Of a stretch of 55,365 nt of DNA, positions 19,057 through 54,788 are shown piece after piece (position 1 is the stretch's first letter; each line of letters starts with the position of its first letter). The notes below the pieces were generated by a model. The model did no database searches. It saw only the letters and a list, made by a program, of their open reading frames with translations, and had not been told where the DNA came from. The stretch lies in the NCBI GenBank assembly GCA_900318825.1, contig ONMB01000018.1, positions 1 to 55,365 on the forward strand. Direction: 5' to 3'. Source of the DNA: an uncultured Ruminococcus sp. GTDB lineage: Bacteria > Bacillota > Clostridia > Oscillospirales > Ruminococcaceae. The translations under genes were made by a program, and so were the position numbers.

Positions 19057-19662
19057 TCACTTGACTTTGTGGCTCTCTAACATATTGCGGATAGAGTCGA
19101 AGAGGTAGGGCTTTAGCTGTTCGATGCCGCAGGGCTCGCCGTATAGGATAGTGGAATAGCAGGTTGAGGAGACAAGTTCAACTATCATAAACATCATAAG
19201 CTCCGGATCACGGAACTCATACGGTGCTTCATCGAGCATCTTGTAGTAGACATCAAGGAAATTGACGTCGCCCTCAGTCGCAGGAGTCGTTATCGCGGAT
19301 TTGAAAATTCCCCAGCTCAGGTTCTTGGAGATGAAGGTCAGCAGCGACTTGTTCTCATTGAGCTGATTTATAATGTTGTCTATCAGCATAACTATCTTGT
19401 CCTCGAAGGTGACTCCGGGGAACTGGTCCTTGAGATCATTGATAGCTTTATTGAAGAGCTGGCTCGACTTGTGTGAGACCAGTTTATTGCGGATATCATA
19501 CTTATCCTTGAAGTAGAGGTAGAAGGTTCCTTTAGCTACTCCGGCTTTTCCGACGATGTCAGATATAGAGGTCTTGCTGAAGCCCTTTGTAGTAAAGAAT
19601 TCAAAAGCAGTTTTGAGGAGCGAGTTTTCTTTCTGCTGCTTGTTAAGATCAACTTTTCCCAT
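19057..19662 (-). CDS. TetR-family repressor
   Basis: A 201-residue TetR regulator. The N-terminal helix-turn-helix is clear (AFEFFTTKGFSKTSISDIVGKAGVAKGTFYLYFKDKYDI, about residues 17-55); the C-terminal ligand/dimer domain is helical with no close family assigned. It faces the MMPL transporter operon across about 310 bases that carry three copies of the palindrome TGACYAACGGTCA, so it most likely represses both that operon and itself. ATG 19662 is chosen for its GAGG spacing and family-like N-terminus. Confidence 0.93.
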   Translation of the reverse strand: MGKVDLNKQQKENSLLKTAFEFFTTKGFSKTSISDIVGKAGVAKGTFYLYFKDKYDIRNKLVSHKSSQLFNKAINDLKDQFPGVTFEDKIVMLIDNIINQLNENKSLLTFISKNLSWGIFKSAITTPATEGDVNFLDVYYKMLDEAPYEFRDPELMMFMIVELVSSTCYSTILYGEPCGIEQLKPYLFDSIRNMLESHKVK

Positions 19663-19746
19663 AAGTCTTAACCTCAATTATAATATGTATCTGACGGATA
19701 GGAACTCTTGCATAATGCGGAATTAACAGTTATTGATTACAACTTA

Positions 19747-19776
19747 ATTATAATCCATTGAAGCGGCTCTTGTCAA
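19747..19776 (-). promoter_or_regulatory. tetR promoter
   Basis: In leftward sense: TTGACA (19771-19776), 18 bases, TATAAT (19747-19752). Operator 1 begins 10 bases upstream of the -35. Confidence 0.85.
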
Positions 19777-19785
19777 GGCAAATTT

Positions 19786-19800
19786 ATGACCAACGGTCAT
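19786..19800. promoter_or_regulatory. TetR operator 1
   Basis: The palindrome ATGACCAACGGTCAT, just upstream of the tetR -35 box. Confidence 0.85.
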
Positions 19801-19871
19801 AAATTTTATCCGTCACTTTTGTGCATTCTTACAAAATTCTCAAAAACAAGTTGATTTTAAGAAATTTAAGG

Positions 19872-19900
19872 TTGACTAACGGTCATTTTAGCGCTATGCT
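19872..19900 (+). promoter_or_regulatory. MMPL operon promoter with operator 2 over its -35
   Basis: TTGACT (19872-19877), 17 bases, TATGCT (19895-19900). The -35 is the first half of the operator TTGACTAACGGTCA (19872-19885), so repressor binding would block polymerase directly. Confidence 0.85.
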
Positions 19901-19915
19901 ATAAATGTAAACACA

Positions 19916-19930
19916 TTGACCAACGGTCAA
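19916..19930. promoter_or_regulatory. TetR operator 3
   Basis: TTGACCAACGGTCAA, a perfect palindrome around the central base, just past the expected start of the MMPL transcript. Confidence 0.85.
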
Positions 19931-19974
19931 TTTTATGTATAAATTATGAATAACTGATAGAAAGGACTGATCTT

Positions 19975-22092
19975 ATGCTTCGTTTCGGCGAATGGGTGGC
20001 AAAACACAGAGTTCTCATACTCCTGTTAGGCATAGTGCTCCTGATACCCTCGGCTATCGGCTACGCCAATACACGAGTAAACTACGATATCCTATCCTAC
20101 CTCCCAAAAGACATTGACACTATGACAGGTCAGGATATACTTAAAGATGAATTCGGTCAAGGAGGCTTCTCCCTTGTAATGATAGAGGGCATGAGCGACA
20201 AGGACGTCGCTAAAACTGCCCATAAGTTCGAGGAGATCGACCACGTTTCCAGCGTAGTATGCTATCAGTCCCTCACCGACTGCGAGATACCTATGGAAAT
20301 ACTCCCCGAAAAATATATCAAAGCCTTCAACAACGGCGATACCACTATGATGGCGGTTTTCTTCGACGATACTACCTCAGCCGACGGTACTCTCGCCGCT
20401 GTCGATAAGATGCGTGACATCACCGACAAGCAGTGCTTCATCAGCGGTATGTCAGCCATAACCCTCGATATGAAGAACCTCTCCAAGAGCGAGTCTATTA
20501 TCTATGCAGTCATAGCTGTTCTCCTCACAAGCCTCGTACTTGTAGTCACTATGGACTCGTTCCTGATACCCCTGTTCTTTATGCTCAGCATAGGCTTCGC
20601 TATTGCATGGAACCTCGGTACGAATATCTTCCTCGGCGAGATATCATTCCTCACAAAAGCCCTCGCAATGGTGCTCCAGCTCGGCGTCACGATGGACTAC
20701 TCTATATTCCTCTGGCACAGCTACAAGGAACAGCTCGAGATATACTCCGGCAATAAGCAGGAAGCTATGGCTCACGCTATCGCTAACACAGTAGTATCAG
20801 TTGTCAGCAGCTCCTTCACAACAGTTGCAGGCTTCCTTGCAATGTGCTTCATGAGCTTCACGCTCGGACTCGACCTCGGCATAGTAATGGCAAAGGGCGT
20901 TGTCTGCGGCGTTATCGCCTGTGTAACAGTCCTCCCGGCAATGATACTCATCTTCGAGAAGGCTATCACAAAGACCTCCCACAGGGAATTCCTCCCCTCG
21001 TTCACTAAGACCTCCGGCTTTATCATAAAGCACTCATGGGTGTTCCTCGTTATCGGAGTCGTGCTTCTTATACCGGCTCTCTTCGGCAACAGCAATTACA
21101 GCGTTTACTACAAGCTCGACAGCACTCTCCCAGCAAGCCTCGAGAGCGTTTCCGCAAACACAAAGCTGTCTGAGGAATTCAATATGAACAGCACCCACAT
21201 AATCCTCGCAAAGTCCGATATGCCTGCAAAGGAAGCTACAAAGATGCTGAACGATATAAAGCAGGTCGACGGTGTAAAGTTCACATTAGGCTACAACGAG
21301 CTCTTCGGACCGGCTATCCCGGACGAAGTTATCCCGGATAAATTCAGAGGCAAGCTCAAGAGCGATGAATACCAGCTTATGCTGGTCGGCTCTGAGTATG
21401 AGGTCGCTTCCGACGAAGTCAATGAGCAGATCACCAAGATAAGCGATATCGTAGGCAAATACGACGATGATGCAATGGTCATCGGTGAAGCTCCCGCTAC
21501 AAAGGACCTCATCAATATCACCGACAAGGACTTCAAGGTCGTAAGCATACTCTCGATCGCAGTTATCTTCCTGATAATCGCATTCACATTCAAGTCCGTA
21601 TCGCTCCCCGTGATACTCGTCTCAGTTATCGAGCTCGCAATTATGATAAATCTCGGCTTAGCCTACTACACCGGAACAAAGCTGCCGTTCATCGCTTCAG
21701 TAGTTATCGGAACGATACAGCTCGGTGCAACAGTTGACTACGCTATTCTTATGACAACAAGATACCGCACAGAAAGATTCCTCGGAAACAGCCGCAGGGA
21801 CTCCGTAAGCACAGCTCTCAGGACATCTATAAAGTCCGTCATCACATCAGCCATGGGCTTCTTCGCAGCTACTATCGGCGTAGCTCTCTATTCCGATATC
21901 GGTATGATCTCGTCACTCTGTATGCTGCTCGCAAGAGGTGCTATCATCTCAATGGTAGTCGTAGTAACTGTACTGCCCTCGATGTTCCTGCTTTTCGACG
22001 GTATCATATGCAGAACGAGCTACGGTTTCGTCCAGAAGCACCACGATAACGACAACGTAAATATGAACAAGGAAGTTTATTCCGTTAAATAA
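19975..22092 (+). CDS. MMPL-family (RND superfamily) transporter
   Basis: A 705-residue inner-membrane protein with two repeated halves. Each has one N-terminal membrane helix, an extracellular domain and a five- to six-helix bundle. The conserved helix motifs are seen twice: QLGVTMDYSIFLWHSY in the first half and QLGATVDYAILMTTRY in the second, each with the Asp-Tyr pair expected for proton coupling. Family members export lipids, glycolipids or drugs; the cargo here is unknown. It is controlled by the divergent TetR and leads an operon with a heptad-repeat secreted protein 25 bases downstream. An AGAAAGGA ribosome binding site precedes the ATG. Confidence 0.93.
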   Translation: MLRFGEWVAKHRVLILLLGIVLLIPSAIGYANTRVNYDILSYLPKDIDTMTGQDILKDEFGQGGFSLVMIEGMSDKDVAKTAHKFEEIDHVSSVVCYQSLTDCEIPMEILPEKYIKAFNNGDTTMMAVFFDDTTSADGTLAAVDKMRDITDKQCFISGMSAITLDMKNLSKSESIIYAVIAVLLTSLVLVVTMDSFLIPLFFMLSIGFAIAWNLGTNIFLGEISFLTKALAMVLQLGVTMDYSIFLWHSYKEQLEIYSGNKQEAMAHAIANTVVSVVSSSFTTVAGFLAMCFMSFTLGLDLGIVMAKGVVCGVIACVTVLPAMILIFEKAITKTSHREFLPSFTKTSGFIIKHSWVFLVIGVVLLIPALFGNSNYSVYYKLDSTLPASLESVSANTKLSEEFNMNSTHIILAKSDMPAKEATKMLNDIKQVDGVKFTLGYNELFGPAIPDEVIPDKFRGKLKSDEYQLMLVGSEYEVASDEVNEQITKISDIVGKYDDDAMVIGEAPATKDLINITDKDFKVVSILSIAVIFLIIAFTFKSVSLPVILVSVIELAIMINLGLAYYTGTKLPFIASVVIGTIQLGATVDYAILMTTRYRTERFLGNSRRDSVSTALRTSIKSVITSAMGFFAATIGVALYSDIGMISSLCMLLARGAIISMVVVVTVLPSMFLLFDGIICRTSYGFVQKHHDNDNVNMNKEVYSVK

Positions 22093-22117
22093 AATAAACA
22101 GTAAAGGAGTAAGAGAT

Positions 22118-24760
22118 ATGAAAAACTATAAAAAAGTCATCGCCGGCGCTGTTGCGATCGCTATATCCGCAGGTGCTACAACCACTCTCGCTTTCGCCAA
22201 GACAAACGACGGCTCAGAACCCGATAACTCCGAAACTGCTGCAACGGCTGCGTCCGACAGCACTTCTTCAAGAACAGAGCTCGACAAAGCCCCCTATAAG
22301 GACGAAACAGTCTATGTTCTCTGCAAGAACGACTCGCATATAAAGAAGGTCATCGTCAGCGACTGGCTGCAAAATCCCCCCGCACTCTCCATACTCGACG
22401 ATGTTACCTCGCTCAAGGATATCGAAAACGTCAAGGGCGAAGAGACCTTCACAACCGACAGCGACAATATCACATGGGCTGCCGACGGAAAGGACATCTA
22501 CTACAAGGGCACTACCGAAAAGGAGCTCCCCGTAGACGTCACAATGAAGTATTTCCTCGATGGCAAGGAAGTAACTCCCGACTCTATCATCGGCAAGAGC
22601 GGTCACCTCGTTATCCGCTGGGAGTATAACAACAAGACCAGCGTCACAAGAAATGTAAACGGCAAGGACAAGGAATTCAAGGTGCCTTTCATCGTGGCAA
22701 GCGCTGCTCTGCTCAACAATGAGAAGTTCCTGAACGCTACTATCTCCAGCGGCAAGGTCATCTCCGACGGAAACCGCCTCATCGTTGTAGGTCTGGCGTT
22801 CCCCGGTCTCAATCAGTGTCTCGGACTCGACGCTATGGAGGACATCGACATCGAGCTCCCGGAGAACGTTGAATTCTCCGCAGACGTTACAGATTTTGAA
22901 ATGAGCAATACAGTTACGGCTGTTTCCAATGAGCTGTTCTCACGCCTCGACTTCGAGGAGGATTTCAACATCGGCAACCTCAAGGAAAAGCTCACTGAGC
23001 TCAGCGACGGCTCAAAGAAACTCTGCGACGGCACCCTTGAACTCTACAACGGCATTAATACTCTCGCCGAAAAGTCAGGCGGTCTCACAGACGGCATCGC
23101 AAAGCTCGATGCAGGTGCGCTCGAACTCAAAAAAGGTGCGGACTCCCTCAGCAGCGGTGCAGCAGCTCTCTCAAACGGTGCCAAGACAGTTTCTGACTCA
23201 ACAGCAAAGCTCAGGGACGGTATCAAGTCCGCAAAGGAAGGTTCATCAAAGCTGAACTCCGGCGCTGCACAGCTCAAGACCGGTGCTGCCGAACTCAGCA
23301 GCGGTGTTGACAAGCTCGTTGAAGGCGGCAAGGCTCTCTCAGCCGGTATAGACTCAGCCAAGAAGGGCTCCGAACAGCTCGTAGCAGGTCTCGCAGACGC
23401 TGACAAGGGCTCGGACGAACTCGTTGCAGGCGCAAAGCAGTTCGCAAACGGTGCTTCACAGCTCGCAGACGGAAGCGCAAAGCTCAAGAGCGGCTCAGCT
23501 GTTCTTGCAGACGGCGCTGCAAAGCTCAACAAGGGCGCTGAAACCCTCAGCGACTCCGCCGGTCAGCTCTCCGACGGCATAAATAGTGCAAAGAACGGTG
23601 CAGACGCACTTTCAGCAGGCATAGACTCAGTCAAGACAGGCGCAGGCTCCCTGAAGAGCGGCGCAGCTTCTGTCGCAGACGGCGCTGAAAAGCTCCACGA
23701 CGGTCTCGGCACTGCAAGCACTTCCCTCAGCACAACTATCGCGGCAAATGAGCAGGCTCTCGCTGCTCTCGAAGCTCTCTACGCTCAGTCACCTTCCACA
23801 GAGCTCGCCACAACGATAGGCACTCTCCGCAAGACCATTGAAGCTCAGAAGCAGATCGCCGCTTCAATGTCCGACACAGGTGATCTCGGCAAGGGCGCTG
23901 CAACACTCGAAAAGGGCTCCGAGCATCTCAGCAACGGCGCAGGCAGCCTCAACGACGGTCTAACTGCCGCGAGCGCAGGCGCTTCACAGCTCAAGACAGG
24001 TCTCGACACACTCAATAAGGGCGGCAAGGCTCTCGCAGGCGGCTCGAAGGAGCTCGCTGCTTCGACCGGCACTCTCTCAACAGGCGCGGCTTCACTTTCA
24101 GGCGGTGCTGCTGAACTCGACGCCGGCATCATCAAGCTGAAGAGCAGCGGCGGAACATTTGTTACCGGTCTCGAAAAACTCTCTGAGGGCATCGACAAGC
24201 TCTACTCAGGTGCTAAGCAGCTCGACAGCGGTCTCGGTAAGCTCTCAACAGGTGCAGTCGACCTCAACAAGGGACTCGCTCAGCTCCAGACCGGCGCTTC
24301 TGCTCTCAGCAAGGGCGCCAATGAGCTCGGAAACGGCGCTAACGTCCTCGACAGCGGCCTCACGGAGCTCCTCGACGGCGGCAACAAGCTCGCCGAAGGT
24401 ACGGCTACTCTCTACGCTTCTACCGGTCAGCTCAGTGAAGGAGCAAAGAAGGTCTCCGACGGCTCGACAGCTGTATGGAACGGCGCTAACGCTCTCAAGG
24501 ACGGCAGCGGCGCTCTCGTGGACGGTATCGCAAAGCTCCGCGGCGGTGCAAAGGACCTCAACGACGGCATGACCAAGTTCAACGATGAGGGTATGTCCAA
24601 GATATCGTCTGCTGTAAATCAAAAGCTGCCTGAAATTATGAACAATTTTAAAACAACTCGCGAAATCTCCAAAGAGTACAATAGCTTTTCCGGCATTTCA
24701 GACAAAATGGACGGAAGTGTAAAGTTCATATATGTTTTTGACGGTGCTTCAAAGAAATAA
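22118..24760 (+). CDS. Secreted heptad-repeat protein (YhgE/Pip-like, LxxGa repeats)
   Basis: An 880-residue exported protein. Residues 1-30 form a signal peptide and about 45-285 a globular N-terminal domain (ending ELFSRLDFEEDFNIGNL). From about 290 to 840 it is a very regular seven-residue repeat of the type L-x-x-G-A/S-x-x (LSNGA, LKTGA, LSSGV, LADGS). A short spacer about 550-580 is more helix-like. No C-terminal membrane segment is visible. Such proteins regularly accompany MMPL genes in Clostridia and resemble the YhgE/Pip repeat region; a role as a periplasm-spanning partner or channel extension is plausible but unproven. Confidence 0.78.
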   Translation: MKNYKKVIAGAVAIAISAGATTTLAFAKTNDGSEPDNSETAATAASDSTSSRTELDKAPYKDETVYVLCKNDSHIKKVIVSDWLQNPPALSILDDVTSLKDIENVKGEETFTTDSDNITWAADGKDIYYKGTTEKELPVDVTMKYFLDGKEVTPDSIIGKSGHLVIRWEYNNKTSVTRNVNGKDKEFKVPFIVASAALLNNEKFLNATISSGKVISDGNRLIVVGLAFPGLNQCLGLDAMEDIDIELPENVEFSADVTDFEMSNTVTAVSNELFSRLDFEEDFNIGNLKEKLTELSDGSKKLCDGTLELYNGINTLAEKSGGLTDGIAKLDAGALELKKGADSLSSGAAALSNGAKTVSDSTAKLRDGIKSAKEGSSKLNSGAAQLKTGAAELSSGVDKLVEGGKALSAGIDSAKKGSEQLVAGLADADKGSDELVAGAKQFANGASQLADGSAKLKSGSAVLADGAAKLNKGAETLSDSAGQLSDGINSAKNGADALSAGIDSVKTGAGSLKSGAASVADGAEKLHDGLGTASTSLSTTIAANEQALAALEALYAQSPSTELATTIGTLRKTIEAQKQIAASMSDTGDLGKGAATLEKGSEHLSNGAGSLNDGLTAASAGASQLKTGLDTLNKGGKALAGGSKELAASTGTLSTGAASLSGGAAELDAGIIKLKSSGGTFVTGLEKLSEGIDKLYSGAKQLDSGLGKLSTGAVDLNKGLAQLQTGASALSKGANELGNGANVLDSGLTELLDGGNKLAEGTATLYASTGQLSEGAKKVSDGSTAVWNGANALKDGSGALVDGIAKLRGGAKDLNDGMTKFNDEGMSKISSAVNQKLPEIMNNFKTTREISKEYNSFSGISDKMDGSVKFIYVFDGASKK

Positions 24761-24845
24761 TTTGTCGTAATTGGTCGAAAAAATCCCTATTTTAAGCGGT
24801 TCCGCTATATATATGCGTATATATATGGGGATAAAGAATATATAT

Positions 24846-24874
24846 TTGCAATTTGGCATAAACAGTGATATACT
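24846..24874 (+). promoter_or_regulatory. Promoter of small RNA 1
   Basis: TTGCAA (24846-24851), 17 bases, TATACT (24869-24874). The expected start is near 24881, right at the first base of a hairpin. Confidence 0.75.
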
Positions 24875-24937
24875 ATTATCAAAGGACAAATGCTGCTTGT
24901 CTTTTATAATGATTTTTTCAATTCCATCCTTTAAAAA
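24862..24937 (+). repeat. Direct repeat shared by the two small-RNA genes, copy 1
   Basis: About 75 bases, from ACAGTGATATACT to CCTTTAAAA. Copy 2 is at 25212-25286, 350 bases downstream. One substitution (A/G after TATACT) is visible, and similarity extends weakly upstream into the -35 region. Confidence 0.9.
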
Positions 24938-24970
24938 CTAAGAGCAACCTTGCGGTTGCTCTTAGTTTTT
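24881..24970 (+). ncRNA. Candidate small RNA 1 (tandem pair)
   Basis: A predicted RNA of about 90 bases. It has a 5' hairpin AAAGGACAA-ATGCTGC-TTGTCTTTT (9 pairs, one G-U), then a single-stranded AU-rich stretch carrying CCATCCTTTAAAA, then a 17-pair terminator stem (24933-24949 / 24954-24970, loop TTGC) with a T-tract. The promoter, 5' stem and single-stranded part recur at 25196-25286 with very few changes, while the terminator sequence is completely different. This pattern argues for two related transcripts and not for a coding or riboswitch leader. No open frame of note lies within it. Confidence 0.7.
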
Positions 24971-25195
24971 ACCCAATTTAAAACAATATTTTTACTGATA
25001 CACAATTTGGAAAAAAATACGTCGTCATTTTGATCAAAGCATTTTCCACGCAAACTTTCACGCAATTACTTTACATAAATTTAACATTGCCTTAACAATC
25101 CCTTATCATTTCGATTTTCGCCTGTATTACGCCGTTTTAAGTGCCATATATTTGATATATATGTATTTGCATATAGCTCGATTAGTATTATATAT

Positions 25196-25224
25196 TTGCT
25201 TTTACATATACACAGTGATATACT
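25196..25224 (+). promoter_or_regulatory. Promoter of small RNA 2
   Basis: TTGCTT (25196-25201), 17 bases, TATACT (25219-25224). The layout is identical to the promoter at 24846-24874. Confidence 0.75.
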
Positions 25225-25230
25225 GTTATC

Positions 25231-25324
25231 AAAGGACAAATGCTGCTTGTCTTTTATAATGATTTTTTCAATTCCATCCTTTAAAAGAAAAAGAGTAGTC
25301 GAAAGACTACTCTTTTTCTTTTTT
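25231..25324 (+). ncRNA. Candidate small RNA 2 (tandem pair)
   Basis: The paralogue of small RNA 1: the same 5' hairpin and the same CCATCCTTT-bearing region (25212-25286 matches 24862-24936 with one base change). It is followed by a different terminator stem, GAAAAAGAGTAGTC / GACTACTCTTTTTC with a GAAA loop (25287-25318) and T6. The terminator overlaps the end of the leftward lysR gene (stop 25307-25309) and can also terminate that gene. Confidence 0.7.
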
Positions 25325-26260
25325 CAGTTCTTCTGCGGCTTCCTTGCCGAATTTCATAAGTGCATCAACACACGCCTTGATTATCGGATTATCCTCGTTG
25401 CTCTCACGGTAAAGCACGATGTCCATATTGGTGTTGCGCGCAAACGAGCAGTCACGCACAACAAGCGGCGTTTTCGGAGCGTATATCTCATAAACGATAG
25501 GTGTCACCCACATATACGCATTATCTATCGTGGAGATAGCACTGAGCTGTACTCCGCGGTCATAAATGAATATTCTCTTGTCGTTGGCATCACAGTTGAG
25601 ATCCTGATTGATGAGGGCTCGTCTCAGCATATCCGGCTCGTCATCGCTGTGGATTATTTCCGGATATTCGTCGAGCAGCTCGATCGGCACATCGTCGTAC
25701 TTTGCAAGCGGGTGATCCGCTCTCATGAGGAGCTTCATACTGTACTCAATTATCGTCTTCTTGACAACGCCGCGGTTCGAGATACGATCCTCGATCATAT
25801 TGATGTAACTGGCAGGTATTCGAGTCACACCGATGTCAAATTTGCCTGTGCATATGTCCTCGACAACTCTCAGGGTATCCGTCTCTGAAAGGTGGATATT
25901 TATGTTGCCGCGGTCCTTTATGAAGTCATTGAGCGTTTTGCTTATTATAGATGTAGCGTAAGCCGAACGCGATACCTCTGCCTTTATGGAAAGCGAGCCG
26001 TCTACTCTGTCCTTGTAGTCATTCTCGAGGGAGTGTATCTCATCGACAACATTTCTCGCTCTCGCAAGAAAGACCTCACCGTCCGGAGTCAGGATCATGC
26101 CGTTCGGGGTACGGTTGAATATTTGTATACCAATACTTTCCTCAAGCTCCTTCAGTGCTATACTGATATTAGGCTGAGCCTGATAGAGCCTCTTTGCTGC
26201 CTTAGTTATGCTGCCGTCCTGAGCGATAGCGATAACATACTCAAGCTGTTGTAGTTTCAT
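25307..26260 (-). CDS. LysR-family transcriptional regulator
   Basis: A 317-residue LysR regulator. The winged helix-turn-helix is at residues 1-60 (LQQLEYVIAIAQDGSITKAAKRLYQAQPNISIALKELEESIGIQIFNRT), followed by a linker helix and a type 2 periplasmic-binding-like effector domain. The effector is unknown, and the C-terminus is Lys/Glu-rich (EELKKEKE). It resembles CysL/CynR-like members in general layout only. There is no divergent partner gene; the XRE regulator upstream is in the same direction, so the usual LysR target cannot be inferred from position. Confidence 0.92.
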   Translation of the reverse strand: MKLQQLEYVIAIAQDGSITKAAKRLYQAQPNISIALKELEESIGIQIFNRTPNGMILTPDGEVFLARARNVVDEIHSLENDYKDRVDGSLSIKAEVSRSAYATSIISKTLNDFIKDRGNINIHLSETDTLRVVEDICTGKFDIGVTRIPASYINMIEDRISNRGVVKKTIIEYSMKLLMRADHPLAKYDDVPIELLDEYPEIIHSDDEPDMLRRALINQDLNCDANDKRIFIYDRGVQLSAISTIDNAYMWVTPIVYEIYAPKTPLVVRDCSFARNTNMDIVLYRESNEDNPIIKACVDALMKFGKEAAEELKKEKE

Positions 26261-26355
26261 AGAATACCTCTTTCACTATTGTTCCATCCAGAATATTACA
26301 AAAAAATCCTTCAAAAGCCTTTTCTTTTACACTAAAAAATGCTATAATAGATATG

Positions 26356-51197: not shown

Positions 51198-54100
51198 TTG
51201 AAAAAAATCGACAACAGAATGAAGTGTTTCCGGTATGCCGCAGTAATGATCCTATGTATCTTCATCAACTGCGTCGGCAGACAGACGGCGAGCCATTTTT
51301 CACTCCCCGGCTGGCTTGACTCCTACGGTACCTTCATAGCAGCATATACGCTCGGACCTGTTCCCGGAGCTGTCTCCGGTATGCTGAGCAATATCCTTTT
51401 CGGCTGCAGGGATATCAAATCGGCAGCTTACCTGATAGTCAGTCTCTATATCGGACTCGAAGTGGGCAGGCTATCTAAAAAGGACTACTTTGAGACTCTT
51501 TTCCACACTATGACAGTCGCAGGTATAATCGCTTCCGGCTGCGTGGTGCTCTCATCTGCCCTCAATATCTTCCTTTACAACGGAACGACCAACAACGTCT
51601 GGGGTGACGGCGTTATGGACTACCTCCGCGAAAACGGCGTCCCCAAGCCTGTTGCTGGTATCATAGGCGAATTCTATATAGAATTTCCGGATAAACTTGT
51701 AACGTCTCTTGCACTTTTCATACTTATACATTTGTCGCGCAACTGCGGCGGAGATACGAAAAAGAAGCTCGCAAAGGATACGGCTGCGCTCTCAGCGTGC
51801 CTGATAGTATTCGCACAGCTCGCTCCCTTGACCTTCCGCTCGGACGCTGCCGACAAAGATAACAACAAGAACGTTACGCACATCTCGTATATCCAGAATG
51901 TCTACGACAGCGGCAACGGTCTGCTCTGCGGTCACGCAAACGCCGTTGCAGAAACAAAAAACGGTATCATCTGGATAGGCACATACGCCGGTCTATACCG
52001 CTATAACGGCAGTGAATTCCTGCATATGTCCTATCTTGAAGGCGTAAAGAACGTCATCTGCCTGTTCGTGGACGACCTCGACCGCGTCTGGATAGGTACG
52101 AACGACAACGGCGTTGCGGTCATGAAAGACGAGAATATCATCGACATAATCAACTCCGAGGACGGTCTGCCGTCAGATACTATAAAATCTATAACTCAGA
52201 CCTCCGACGGTCTGTACTACATAGGTACTGCCAACGGCATCGTTTCCCTGAAGCACGGTGAGAATACGACTGTCAATTCCGATATGGAGGAGATAGACTA
52301 CACCAGCAAGCTCTCCGCCGATAAGCTCGGCAATGCCGCTGCGATAGATTCGGAAGGCAAGCTCTATATCCTCAGGGACGGAAAGATACTCACAACGCTC
52401 GAAAAGAGCTTTAACCGCTCAAAAATGTCCTGCTGCAACTTCGCCGAGGACAATACTCTCTTCGTAGGTACTACTGACGGTCTCGTCAGCGAGTACACCC
52501 TCGAAAACGACAAACTGAAAAATATCCGCAACATCAATTGCAGTGAAGTCACTAAGATAAACAATATCTACCCTGACGAGGAAGATGATATGATATGGCT
52601 CTGTTCCGATGACGGCATAGGCTACATATCACCCTCGCACGAATTCACTATGCAGGAGACGGGCGATTTCAACCGCTCGATTGAGAATATGATAACCGAC
52701 TATCAGGGTAATCTCTGGTTTGCTTCATCAAGACTCGGTCTCCTCAATCTCTCACGCTCCTCCGTTACCGATATCTACTCCGACGCCGGTATCAAGCCCG
52801 ATGTCGTGAACACTACCGCTATATTCAACGGTCTGCTCTACGTCGGCACAGACGACGGTCTCAAGATAATCGACATGGCTGCCCACAGGCAGATAGAAAA
52901 TAATCTCACCTCCGAACACTTCAAAGGCAATCGTATAAGATGCCTTATGACCGACTCCAAGGGCTTGCTCTGGGTGTGCAGCTACGGCTCCGGACTCGCT
53001 TCTGTCGACAAGGACGGCAGCGTCAATTCATACTCCACCAGCTTCGGTCAGATAGGAAACCGCGTAAGAGTCTGCATCGAACTGTCAGACGGCACGATAG
53101 TTTCTACCTGTACCAACGGCATCATCTTCCTGAAAGACGGCAGACCTGTTTCAAGTATTGATTACGGCGACAAGTTCGGCCACGCACAGGTCGTTTGTCT
53201 GCTCGAAGCTGCCGACGGTACTCTCTATGCAGGTACTGACGGAAACGGCATTGCCGTTATAAAGGACGGAGAGGTCACCGGAAGATTGACCCGCAAGGAC
53301 GGCCTCTCATCGGATACAATTCTCAGACTGGTCAAGGACCCCGAGGACGGCAGCATCTTCATCGTAACTTCCAACAGCATATGCTATATGAAGGACGGCA
53401 GTATAAGATGCCTCGAAAATTTCCCATATTCCAACAACTACGACATAATACTCGACGATGACGGCGAAATGTTCATCACCGGAAGCGCCGGTATCTATGT
53501 AGTGAATAAGAAGGATCTCCTCAACAACAGCGAGCCCGAATATAACCTCCTCAACAAGGGTATCGGTCTCGACTGCTCCCCTACGGTACACGCAAGAAAC
53601 GCTATCACCGCTGACAAGGACCTCTATCTTTCAACCCCGAAGGGCGTTTTCAAATTCAATCTCGATCACTATCTCCTCAGTCATGATAACTTCAACATAT
53701 TGCTGAACACCGTCAAGCTCGACGACAACTATCAGCAGCTCAAGCAGAATTCAGAGCTGGTCGTTGAACGTGATACCGCAAAGATAGAATTTATCCCCGA
53801 AATAATCAACTACACCCACTACGATCCGACGATCGCCTACTGTCTCGAAGGCTTTGAGTCAAACTGGACAAAGACTACTCTCAAGGACCTCCGCTCCATA
53901 ACCTACACCAACCTCAAACCCGGTGATTACGTTCTCAGGCTGGCGGTCCTCGATGAGAACGGCAGCAAGATCAAGGAGATATCCTACGCATTTGAAAAGA
54001 AAATTGCGATATATGACCATTTCTGGTTCAGATACTATATGATAGGCGTTGCAGCAGTATTCGTAGGCTGGCTGACATGGTACATCACAAGGACGCAGAT

Positions 54101-54450
54101 ACAGCGTACCCTCCAGTTCCAGCAGACAAAGCTCGCTCTCGCACTCCAGCAGGTCCAGATGGGCAACGAGACCATTCTCGCTATTGCCAAGACCGTTGAC
54201 GCAAAGGACCTCCGCACAAGTAAACACTCGCAGAGAGTTTCGGAGTATTCCGCACTCATCGCCAAGGAGTACGGCTTTTCCAAGGAGGAGCAGGAGAATA
54301 TCCGCAACGCAGCTCTGCTCCACGATATCGGCAAGATAGGTATCCCAGACTCCGTCCTCAACAAGCCCGGAAGGCTTACCGATGAGGAATACACCATTAT
54401 GAAGACTCACGTCACACGCGGCGCGGAGATACTCAAGGACTTCACCCTCA
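51198..54450 (+). CDS. Membrane propeller sensor with Y_Y_Y and HD-GYP domain (3' end lost at a chimeric join)
   Basis: Predicted extracellular sensor coupled to cyclic-di-GMP breakdown. The N-terminal ~200 residues hold about six membrane helices (RQTASHFSLPGWLDSYGTFIAAYTLGPVPGAVSG, resembling an ECF-type substrate-binding bundle). About 220-800 are two-component-propeller repeats (DGLPSDTIKSI, GLSSDTI, WVCSYGSGLASVDKDG), and about 830-935 a Y_Y_Y domain (CLEGFESNWTKT, YTNLKPGDYVLRLAV). A membrane helix is at about 945-965. HD-GYP starts near 985 with HSQRVSEYSALIA and HDIGKIG (His1042, Asp1043). The GYP half is missing because the frame passes into DUF2207 sequence near 54,430-54,460. TTG start with GGGAGG upstream. 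Confidence 0.82.
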
Positions 54451-54460
54451 TCGAGGACCG
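54430..54460. other. Probable chimeric join
   Basis: Left of here the frame is an HD-GYP domain in Ruminococcus-like codon use. Right of here it is the C-terminus of a DUF2207 protein and GC-richer DNA. The bridging residues EILKDFTLIED could belong to either family, so a short shared sequence (about 54,432-54,455) probably caused the join. Confidence 0.75.
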
Positions 54461-54788
54461 CGGCGTCGTGGAAGTGGGGCTGTGGAACAACTACCTCATC
54501 TTCGCGTCGCTGTACGGCATCGCCGACCAGGTGAAGAAGGACTTCCAGAAAGTCTGCCCCGAGTATTTCGAGCTCAGCAAGACGGCCGGACAGCTGGCCG
54601 ACAGCCGCTCCGTCGTCGTGTGGGACATGATCAACACGACGTCCCGGAACATGCACATCACGGCCCAGAACTACGCGAATCGTTCCACCGGATCCGGCCA
54701 TACATCCTGGCACGGCGGTGGCGGCAGCACCTCCTGGGGCGGAGGCGGTGGATTCTCCGGCGGCGGATTCGGCGGCGGAGGCCGCTGA
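54451..54788 (+). CDS. DUF2207-family membrane protein, C-terminal fragment
   Basis: About 112 codons, from a different genome to the left neighbour by appearance. Seen: LWNNYLIFASLYGIADQVKKDFQKVCPEYF, the conserved C-terminal core of DUF2207 proteins, followed by the family-typical Gly/Ser-rich end (GGGGFSGGGFGGGGR). The start of its own gene is absent; in frame it continues the HD-GYP protein, which I consider an artefact. DUF2207 proteins are bacterial membrane proteins of unknown role. Confidence 0.75.

Follow-up and report, generated by a model that had tools for sequence, protein, structure and literature searches.

We describe here two tandem copies of what is probably a trans-acting, base-pairing small RNA from an uncultured Ruminococcus sp., whose best-supported target would be the mRNA of the LysR-type regulator encoded next to it; should LysR activate the RNA promoter, the two genes would form a feedback loop. 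The copies lie in the window, by which we mean the whole stretch of 55,365 nucleotides that was analysed. Comparison of genomes at the level of sequence reveals that the two RNA genes belong to a family under selection, that this family co-occurs with a LysR ortholog and that, in a subset of genomes, the core of the RNA is complementary to the lysR leader. We judge the family, found only in the genus Ruminococcus, to be an undescribed one, that is, a new family of a known kind.

Two small-RNA genes and their family

As a preliminary description of this DNA had stated, each copy contains a TTGCWW-N17-TATACT promoter and a nine-pair hairpin whose first base is the one expected for the transcript; an unpaired CAUCCUUUA stretch comes next, and a strong terminator closes the unit. 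The register distance between the copies is 350 bases. Fold z-scores were -7.56 for copy 1 and -7.64 for copy 2, and none of 200 shuffles of either sequence folded equally well. The promoter of RNA 1 (24805-24874, plus strand) consists of a -35 box, TTGCAA (24846-24851), a 17-base spacer and an extended -10 box, TGA-TATACT, which ends at 24874 (TATACT, 24869-24874); within the same interval, upstream of the -35 box, is an AT-rich block that is conserved when aligned with 56 other copies. RNA 1 is predicted to be about 91 nt long (24881-24971, plus strand; 67.1 bits with the covariance model R2, see below), its start being placed from the -10 box and its end from the terminator. It begins with the 5' hairpin (24881-24905, arms 24881-24889 and 24897-24905), which is confined to the flavefaciens-type subtype, continues with the unpaired core GATTTTTTCAATTCCATCCTTTA (24911-24933), which is better conserved than any other part of the family and is proposed to pair with targets, and ends in a Rho-independent terminator recognized by fold and covariation (24932-24971, arms about 24932-24949 and 24954-24971). 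The promoter of RNA 2 (25155-25224, plus strand) has TTGCTT at -35 (25196-25201), a spacer of 17 bases and TATACT at -10 (25219-25224). RNA 2 (about 92 nt; 25231-25322, plus strand; 71.1 bits with R2) has the same body and a different terminator, with predicted 5' hairpin arms at 25231-25239 and 25247-25255, an unpaired core at 25261-25283, and a terminator at 25283-25322 (arms about 25283-25300 and 25305-25322). This last terminator extends over the 3' end of the lysR frame, which converges on RNA 2, and gives a match in antisense as well; it may end both the RNA 2 and the lysR transcripts. Judged by its letters, each unit appears to have the promoter and Rho-independent terminator of its own that characterize a trans-acting small RNA.

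The 55-base bodies of copies 1 and 2, terminators not counted, are identical, and the terminators are alike at 24 of 40 bases. In the assembly from which the window comes, which is 84% complete, these two copies are the only matches at E <= 0.001. A search of the genus with copy 1 found tandem pairs in three more genomes (G023, G003 and G099) and single copies elsewhere. The comparison with G003 and G099 is instructive: in both, the body of RNA 1 is identical at 55 of 55 bases and that of RNA 2 at 54 of 55, whereas the spacer between the copies agrees at 113 of 195 bases including gaps in G003 (113 of 139 aligned positions) and at 109 of 195 in G099 (109 of 130 aligned positions). The LysR proteins of these genomes are 59% identical to that of the window. 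Identical bodies beside a diverged spacer, a promoter in 57 of 57 copies and the covariance model bear out the earlier suggestion that two small-RNA genes are under selection here.

A first covariance model, R1, combined the core and the terminator of 12 sequences, and a broader model, R2 (28 sequences), was built after inspection of the R1 results and used for all counts. With R2, whose stricter search filters could lose weak matches, 56 genomes had a match at E <= 0.01; removal of G029 (38.7 bits) and G119 (39.4 bits) left 54 of the 125 genomes of the genus, all at 50.4 bits or more. The next other matches scored 42.6 bits (the antisense of a member) and 40.5 bits. R1 matches at L181, L184, L185, L190-L194 and L196-L199 were dropped because no promoter was seen. 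Among 297 genomes drawn from the taxonomic family, a few of them belonging to the genus, the best R2 match outside the genus was in G403 (52.3 bits); it passes the same score and has no visible promoter. G403 and G352 (loci L143 and L145) belong to another genus of the taxonomic family; in both, a TTTTTCTATTTCATCCTTTCATACTAA stretch precedes a terminator, with no promoter seen. Despite the similar core, both were left out of the family count for want of a visible promoter.

No named RNA family had been recognized in the preliminary description, and Rfam 15 agrees with this: at the gathering threshold the whole window gave three tRNAs only and no match to the RNA copies. The 33 weaker matches listed for 24760-25400 all fell below threshold and were taken as chance. 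DNA similar to the RNA copies was not found in phage and plasmid records. Pattern scans picked up 65 stretches in genome contigs. Ten of them were Ruminococcus sequences with the whole unit; the 50 bases that follow the pattern fold at -22.8 to -31.6 kcal/mol in these 10, against 0 to -14.7 kcal/mol in the other 55 and 0 to -12.4 kcal/mol in five viral stretches. A narrow literature search of open-licence papers on Ruminococcus small RNAs found none that, judged by its title, deals with such an RNA family.

Which parts of the RNA persist is best seen across the family. The spacer between the -35 and -10 boxes is 17 bases in all 57 copies examined, a length that the script tried first, and a common block lies upstream. 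A dispersed element lacking a conserved promoter and stem, which the preliminary description had named as the outcome that would speak against genes, is therefore not what these copies represent. In the terminator stem, changes on both sides were seen at 15 of 15 pairs (27 distinct sequences), and the number of double-change cells was 62, compared with a shuffled mean of 13.6. The preliminary description had expected such compensatory changes in the 5' stem; they were found in the terminator instead. Members fall into subtypes, labelled A to H in this analysis, with different 5' parts. The 5' hairpin is unrelated in sequence between most subtypes, and none is predicted in type D. The core is conserved around CAUCCUUUA, with AUCCCCUU in types G and H, and types C, F, G and H have a C-rich terminator loop. 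In type G (L264-L266, L268-L279 and L283) an unpaired AUCCCCUU is accompanied by a terminator loop with CCUCCCCCC, and the same stretch precedes the terminator in 16 genomes. Thus, the view that selection keeps the 5' part while terminators turn over fits the tandem pair but not the family, because the 5' hairpins differ across subtypes and it is promoter, core and terminator type that persist. Likewise, the two terminators are indeed dissimilar within the window, but members of the family have in common a terminator consensus near GARYGAGRRAC.

The LysR partner gene

Convergent with the two RNAs is the partner gene, which encodes a LysR-type regulator of 317 aa (25307-26260, minus strand; Pfam HTH_1, 1.1e-18, and LysR_substrate, 1.1e-10). 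None of the 25 NCBIfam models listed for this protein reached its cut-off. One ortholog per genome was found in 71 of the 125 genomes, with a gap separating orthologs (E 6.5e-62) from paralogs (6.1e-47). All 54 RNA-bearing genomes contain the ortholog, so that there is no genome with the RNA and without LysR, and the RNA was found in none of the 54 genomes without the ortholog. A LysR ortholog with no detected RNA is present in 17 genomes, including G098, where it lies near a contig end. The association has a Fisher p of 1.5e-20, a value that is overstated because the genomes are related and the counts are not independent events.

RNA and lysR are convergent neighbours in 45 of the 54 genomes, with gaps of -13 to 183 bases. 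They are in tandem, about 1 kb apart, in two genomes, and unlinked or on other contigs in seven. At L299 and L300 (G094 and G109), lysR orthologs with no detected RNA adjoin a AAGAATGAGGAAC hairpin that resembles the family terminator; this hairpin is perhaps the relic of a lost RNA gene. In the lysR promoters of type C (L163-L167 and L180), GAATATA or CAAATATA occurs shortly past the -10 box and resembles the conserved block of the RNA promoter. The two could possibly represent a common LysR site.

On the other side of the RNAs, a TetR gene is divergent from genes for an MMPL-type transporter and a protein of X-X-X-Leu-X-X-Gly heptad repeats (TIGR03057, 1.1e-53) in window positions 19057-24760. 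We rejected the MMPL, TetR and heptad-repeat genes as partners of the RNA; transporter and heptad-repeat genes upstream adjoin the RNA in 6 of 46 loci examined.

Complementarity of the RNA core and the lysR leader

In the window, the lysR leader (26261-26300, minus strand) carries GGATGGAA, where pairing is proposed (-29 to -22), as well as an SD-like GAAAGAGG. The exact match to the RNA is 8 bases (shuffle p 0.15), the predicted duplex has an energy of -16.0 kcal/mol, and no site in the window lysR came within three mismatches of the 17-base pattern. Longer exact antisense matches between the RNA and its own lysR leader were found in eight other genomes: 14 bases in G013, G071 and G104, 13 in G101, 12 in G018 and G026, and 11 in G063 and G023 (shuffle p 0.003-0.007). 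In G003 and G099 the exact match is 7 bases (p 0.55-0.60), with agreement at 14 of 15 bases across TAAAGGAAGGAATTG. The paired parts of the leader go with the type of core, being GGATGGAATT in type A, AAAGGATGAAAATT or TTTTATAAAGGATG in type B and AGGATGAAATTA in type C (in G018); in G017 a variant core, CCUAUAAA, stands opposite a variant leader, UUUAUAGG. In five of the matching genomes (G063, G101, G071, G104 and G018; 11-14 exact bases) the two genes are unlinked, and therefore their neighbourhood cannot explain the complementarity. The comparison of unlinked genomes covered these five and G054, leaving aside G089; in G054 the exact match is just 7 bases and the duplex ranks 24 of 245. Nineteen further rows (subtypes C without G018, D, F and H, together with G006 and G106) gave exact matches of 5-9 bases and duplex ranks of 5 to 177 of 245. 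In type G, pairing with lysR is weak, at a mean of -10.7 kcal/mol.

The predicted pairing covers or adjoins the SD in G003, G071, G104, G017, G018 and G053. The longest match lies upstream of the SD, starting between -35 and -29, in the window, G013, G063 and G101 (-35 to -31 in the last three); for the window, G013 and G101 the predicted duplex extends further toward the SD. In G023 and G026 the longest match lies at -56 and -60, and elsewhere pairing is weak or absent. Roughly half of the genomes with a match thus have the site before the SD, which slightly lowers our confidence in the explanation preferred here and in the one-to-one pair considered below. The earlier proposal that the RNAs bind ribosome-binding sites gains support as pairing near such a site, with lysR as a specific candidate target.

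Duplex energies were ranked against 245 control leaders, which were simple longest-ATG frames from fetched loci, so that some of their starts are wrong. The lysR leader ranked 1 in G101, G071, G013, G018 and G017, 2 in G104 and 7 in the window. For types A and B, ranks were 1 to 7 in 10 of 12 rows, the exceptions being G026 (30) and G054 (24); G018, G017 and G053, which were grouped with these types after the result was seen, ranked 1, 1 and 5. Ranks against the 158 controls with an SD-like motif were similar. The window core gave a mean of -9.7 kcal/mol with the lysR leaders of 16 RNA-less genomes versus -19.2 with six type A leaders, and, of the 12 genomes for which this comparison is given, 9 had the matched RNA-lysR pair in first place among 32, the others being the orthologous lysR leaders of 16 RNA-less and 15 type G genomes. 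The matching is not exclusive: the type A core pairs with the G053 leader at -20.7, more strongly than the mean with its own leaders (-19.2), the type D core pairs with type A leaders at -16.4 compared with -11.8 for its own, and in G071 the lysR leader of another genome reaches -19.5 kcal/mol against -19.6 for its own.

Genome-wide specificity was addressed by sequence-pattern searches in twelve genomes. Both G071 (75% complete) and G104 contain the 13-base match TTTATAAAGGATG at just two places, one being the RNA gene and the other the lysR leader; G026 has it in the RNA gene only. For the 12-base pattern AGGATGRAAWTT, G101 shows a single occurrence, which is at lysR. G063 has two, of which one is at lysR, and G013 five, with lysR and the RNA gene accounting for one each. 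The window's own genome and G023 lack this pattern, and its sole place in G018 is not at lysR. Elsewhere in the window, the leader AAGGGAGGAGTAAAATTGAAAAAA of the gene at 51198-54788 is predicted to pair with the RNA core at -18.9 kcal/mol, more strongly than lysR does (-16.0); this gene could possibly be a further target.

Alternative explanations and a model

There is a substantial possibility that the RNA is a general anti-Shine-Dalgarno RNA with many mRNA targets, lysR among them, and that its link with LysR reflects LysR driving the RNA; this explanation overlaps with the one that we prefer. LhrC and the streptococcal csRNAs work as anti-Shine-Dalgarno RNAs. The core is nearly invariant though the lysR leaders vary, and near-invariance of CAUCCUUUA is more conservation than one drifting target requires, which counts against lysR as the only target. 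The C-rich terminator loop of types C, F, G and H, the 51198-54788 leader that surpasses lysR in the window and the location of other matches in G063 and G018 at likely start codons all suit an RNA of broad action. In 10 of the 11 genomes compared, patterns complementary to the core also outnumber the reversed control (RNA genes counted; the window's own genome is the exception), but such an excess could arise for any SD-like pattern. Against a general RNA, the 13-base match of G071 and G104 is unique to lysR besides the RNA gene, the 12-base pattern of G101 is found once, at lysR, and in the pattern search no other matched sequence, judged by its letters, recurs outside the close pair G003 and G099. 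These last observations argue for lysR as a particular target.

Other readings account for less. It is unlikely that the RNA genes stay beside lysR mainly because one terminator ends both convergent transcripts, the role of the RNA lying elsewhere: convergence in 45 of 54 genomes at gaps of -13 to 183 bases, and the match of several terminators to the model in antisense too, are what this would predict, but identical RNA bodies, conserved promoters and complementarity in unlinked genomes are left unexplained. A shade less probable still is that LysR or another protein binds the common sequence as a DNA operator in both the RNA gene and the lysR leader, and that no pairing between RNAs takes place there. 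Both sites belong to genes of one regulator, and autoregulation is frequent among LysR proteins. Against this reading, the eight genomes whose antisense match reaches 11 bases or more have sense matches of 5-8 bases (the longest sense match anywhere being 9, in G077 and G107), and match boundaries vary among genomes. The repeat could finally be read as encoding a 14-residue peptide (ATG CTG CTT ... CTT TAA after AAAGGA), in a frame that is open in copies 1 and 2. We rejected this reading, which is scarcely credible, since G101 and G063 lack the start codon, and other subtypes have a different 5' part in place of the one that holds it.

We therefore return to a base-pairing RNA that acts on lysR and propose the following model. 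Each RNA would be made from its own conserved promoter and stop at its own terminator, exposing an anti-Shine-Dalgarno-like stretch composed of CAUCCUUUA and its 5' neighbours. This stretch would pair with the lysR leader, at the SD or upstream of it, and pairing would most likely reduce LysR translation. If the conserved block immediately before the -35 box mediates activation of the RNA promoter by LysR, the result would be a negative feedback loop. Where lysR is unmatched, the RNA may rely on short pairing at an SD or have a different main target. We infer transcription, repression and LysR control of the RNA. In the GcvA-GcvB and OxyR-OxyS systems, the small RNA gene adjoins the gene of a LysR-type regulator, is divergent from it and is activated by that regulator. 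The Ruminococcus gene also adjoins a LysR-type gene, but the pair is mostly convergent and activation by LysR is hypothetical. Control of the RNA by LysR is a guess, prompted by the conserved block upstream of the -35 box and by these LysR-small RNA neighbours. More tentatively, and as less likely than not, we suggest that LysR and the RNA form a dedicated one-to-one pair throughout the genus, in which complementarity of seed and leader outlasts separation of the genes, and in which promoter, seed and terminator persist whereas the 5' domain can be exchanged freely.

Several known systems resemble this one. Streptococcal csRNAs are several similar RNAs, driven by CiaR, with a 5' stem, an unpaired anti-SD stretch and a terminator. 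The Ruminococcus copies have these same three parts; the csRNAs differ in being CiaR-driven, and the Ruminococcus RNAs have no Rfam match at the gathering threshold. LhrC of Listeria is a family of small RNAs present in several copies, each built from a stem-loop, an unpaired stretch rich in C and U, and a terminator; its C/U-rich sites pair at a Shine-Dalgarno sequence, it acts on lapB and it has a link to the LisRK two-component system (PMC4132741). We note a similar build (stem-loop, unpaired stretch, terminator) and claim no membership: the Ruminococcus RNAs differ in their core CAUCCUUU, their partner LysR gene, a candidate target that is a regulator mRNA and the lack of an Rfam match. 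The window copies have CAUCCUUU and no UCCC, a motif that an LhrC-like RNA would carry in its loops and unpaired stretch; types G and H do have UCCCC. The closest working analogue may be OmrA/OmrB of enterobacteria, which are Hfq-linked, OmpR-driven twin RNAs with many targets that pair through a conserved 5' end and repress the mRNA of their own activator (ompR-envZ), closing a negative feedback loop (PMC12692685). Ruminococcus likewise has twin similar RNAs and a regulator mRNA as putative target, again with no claim of membership. The two differ in that the stretch proposed to pair lies inside the Ruminococcus RNA, whose control by LysR is conjectural.

Ruminococcus is a major fibre-degrading genus of the rumen and gut. 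The family described here gives it a genus-wide marker with a concrete candidate target, and the genomes in which RNA and lysR are unlinked are natural experiments that set RNA pairing against mere neighbourhood.
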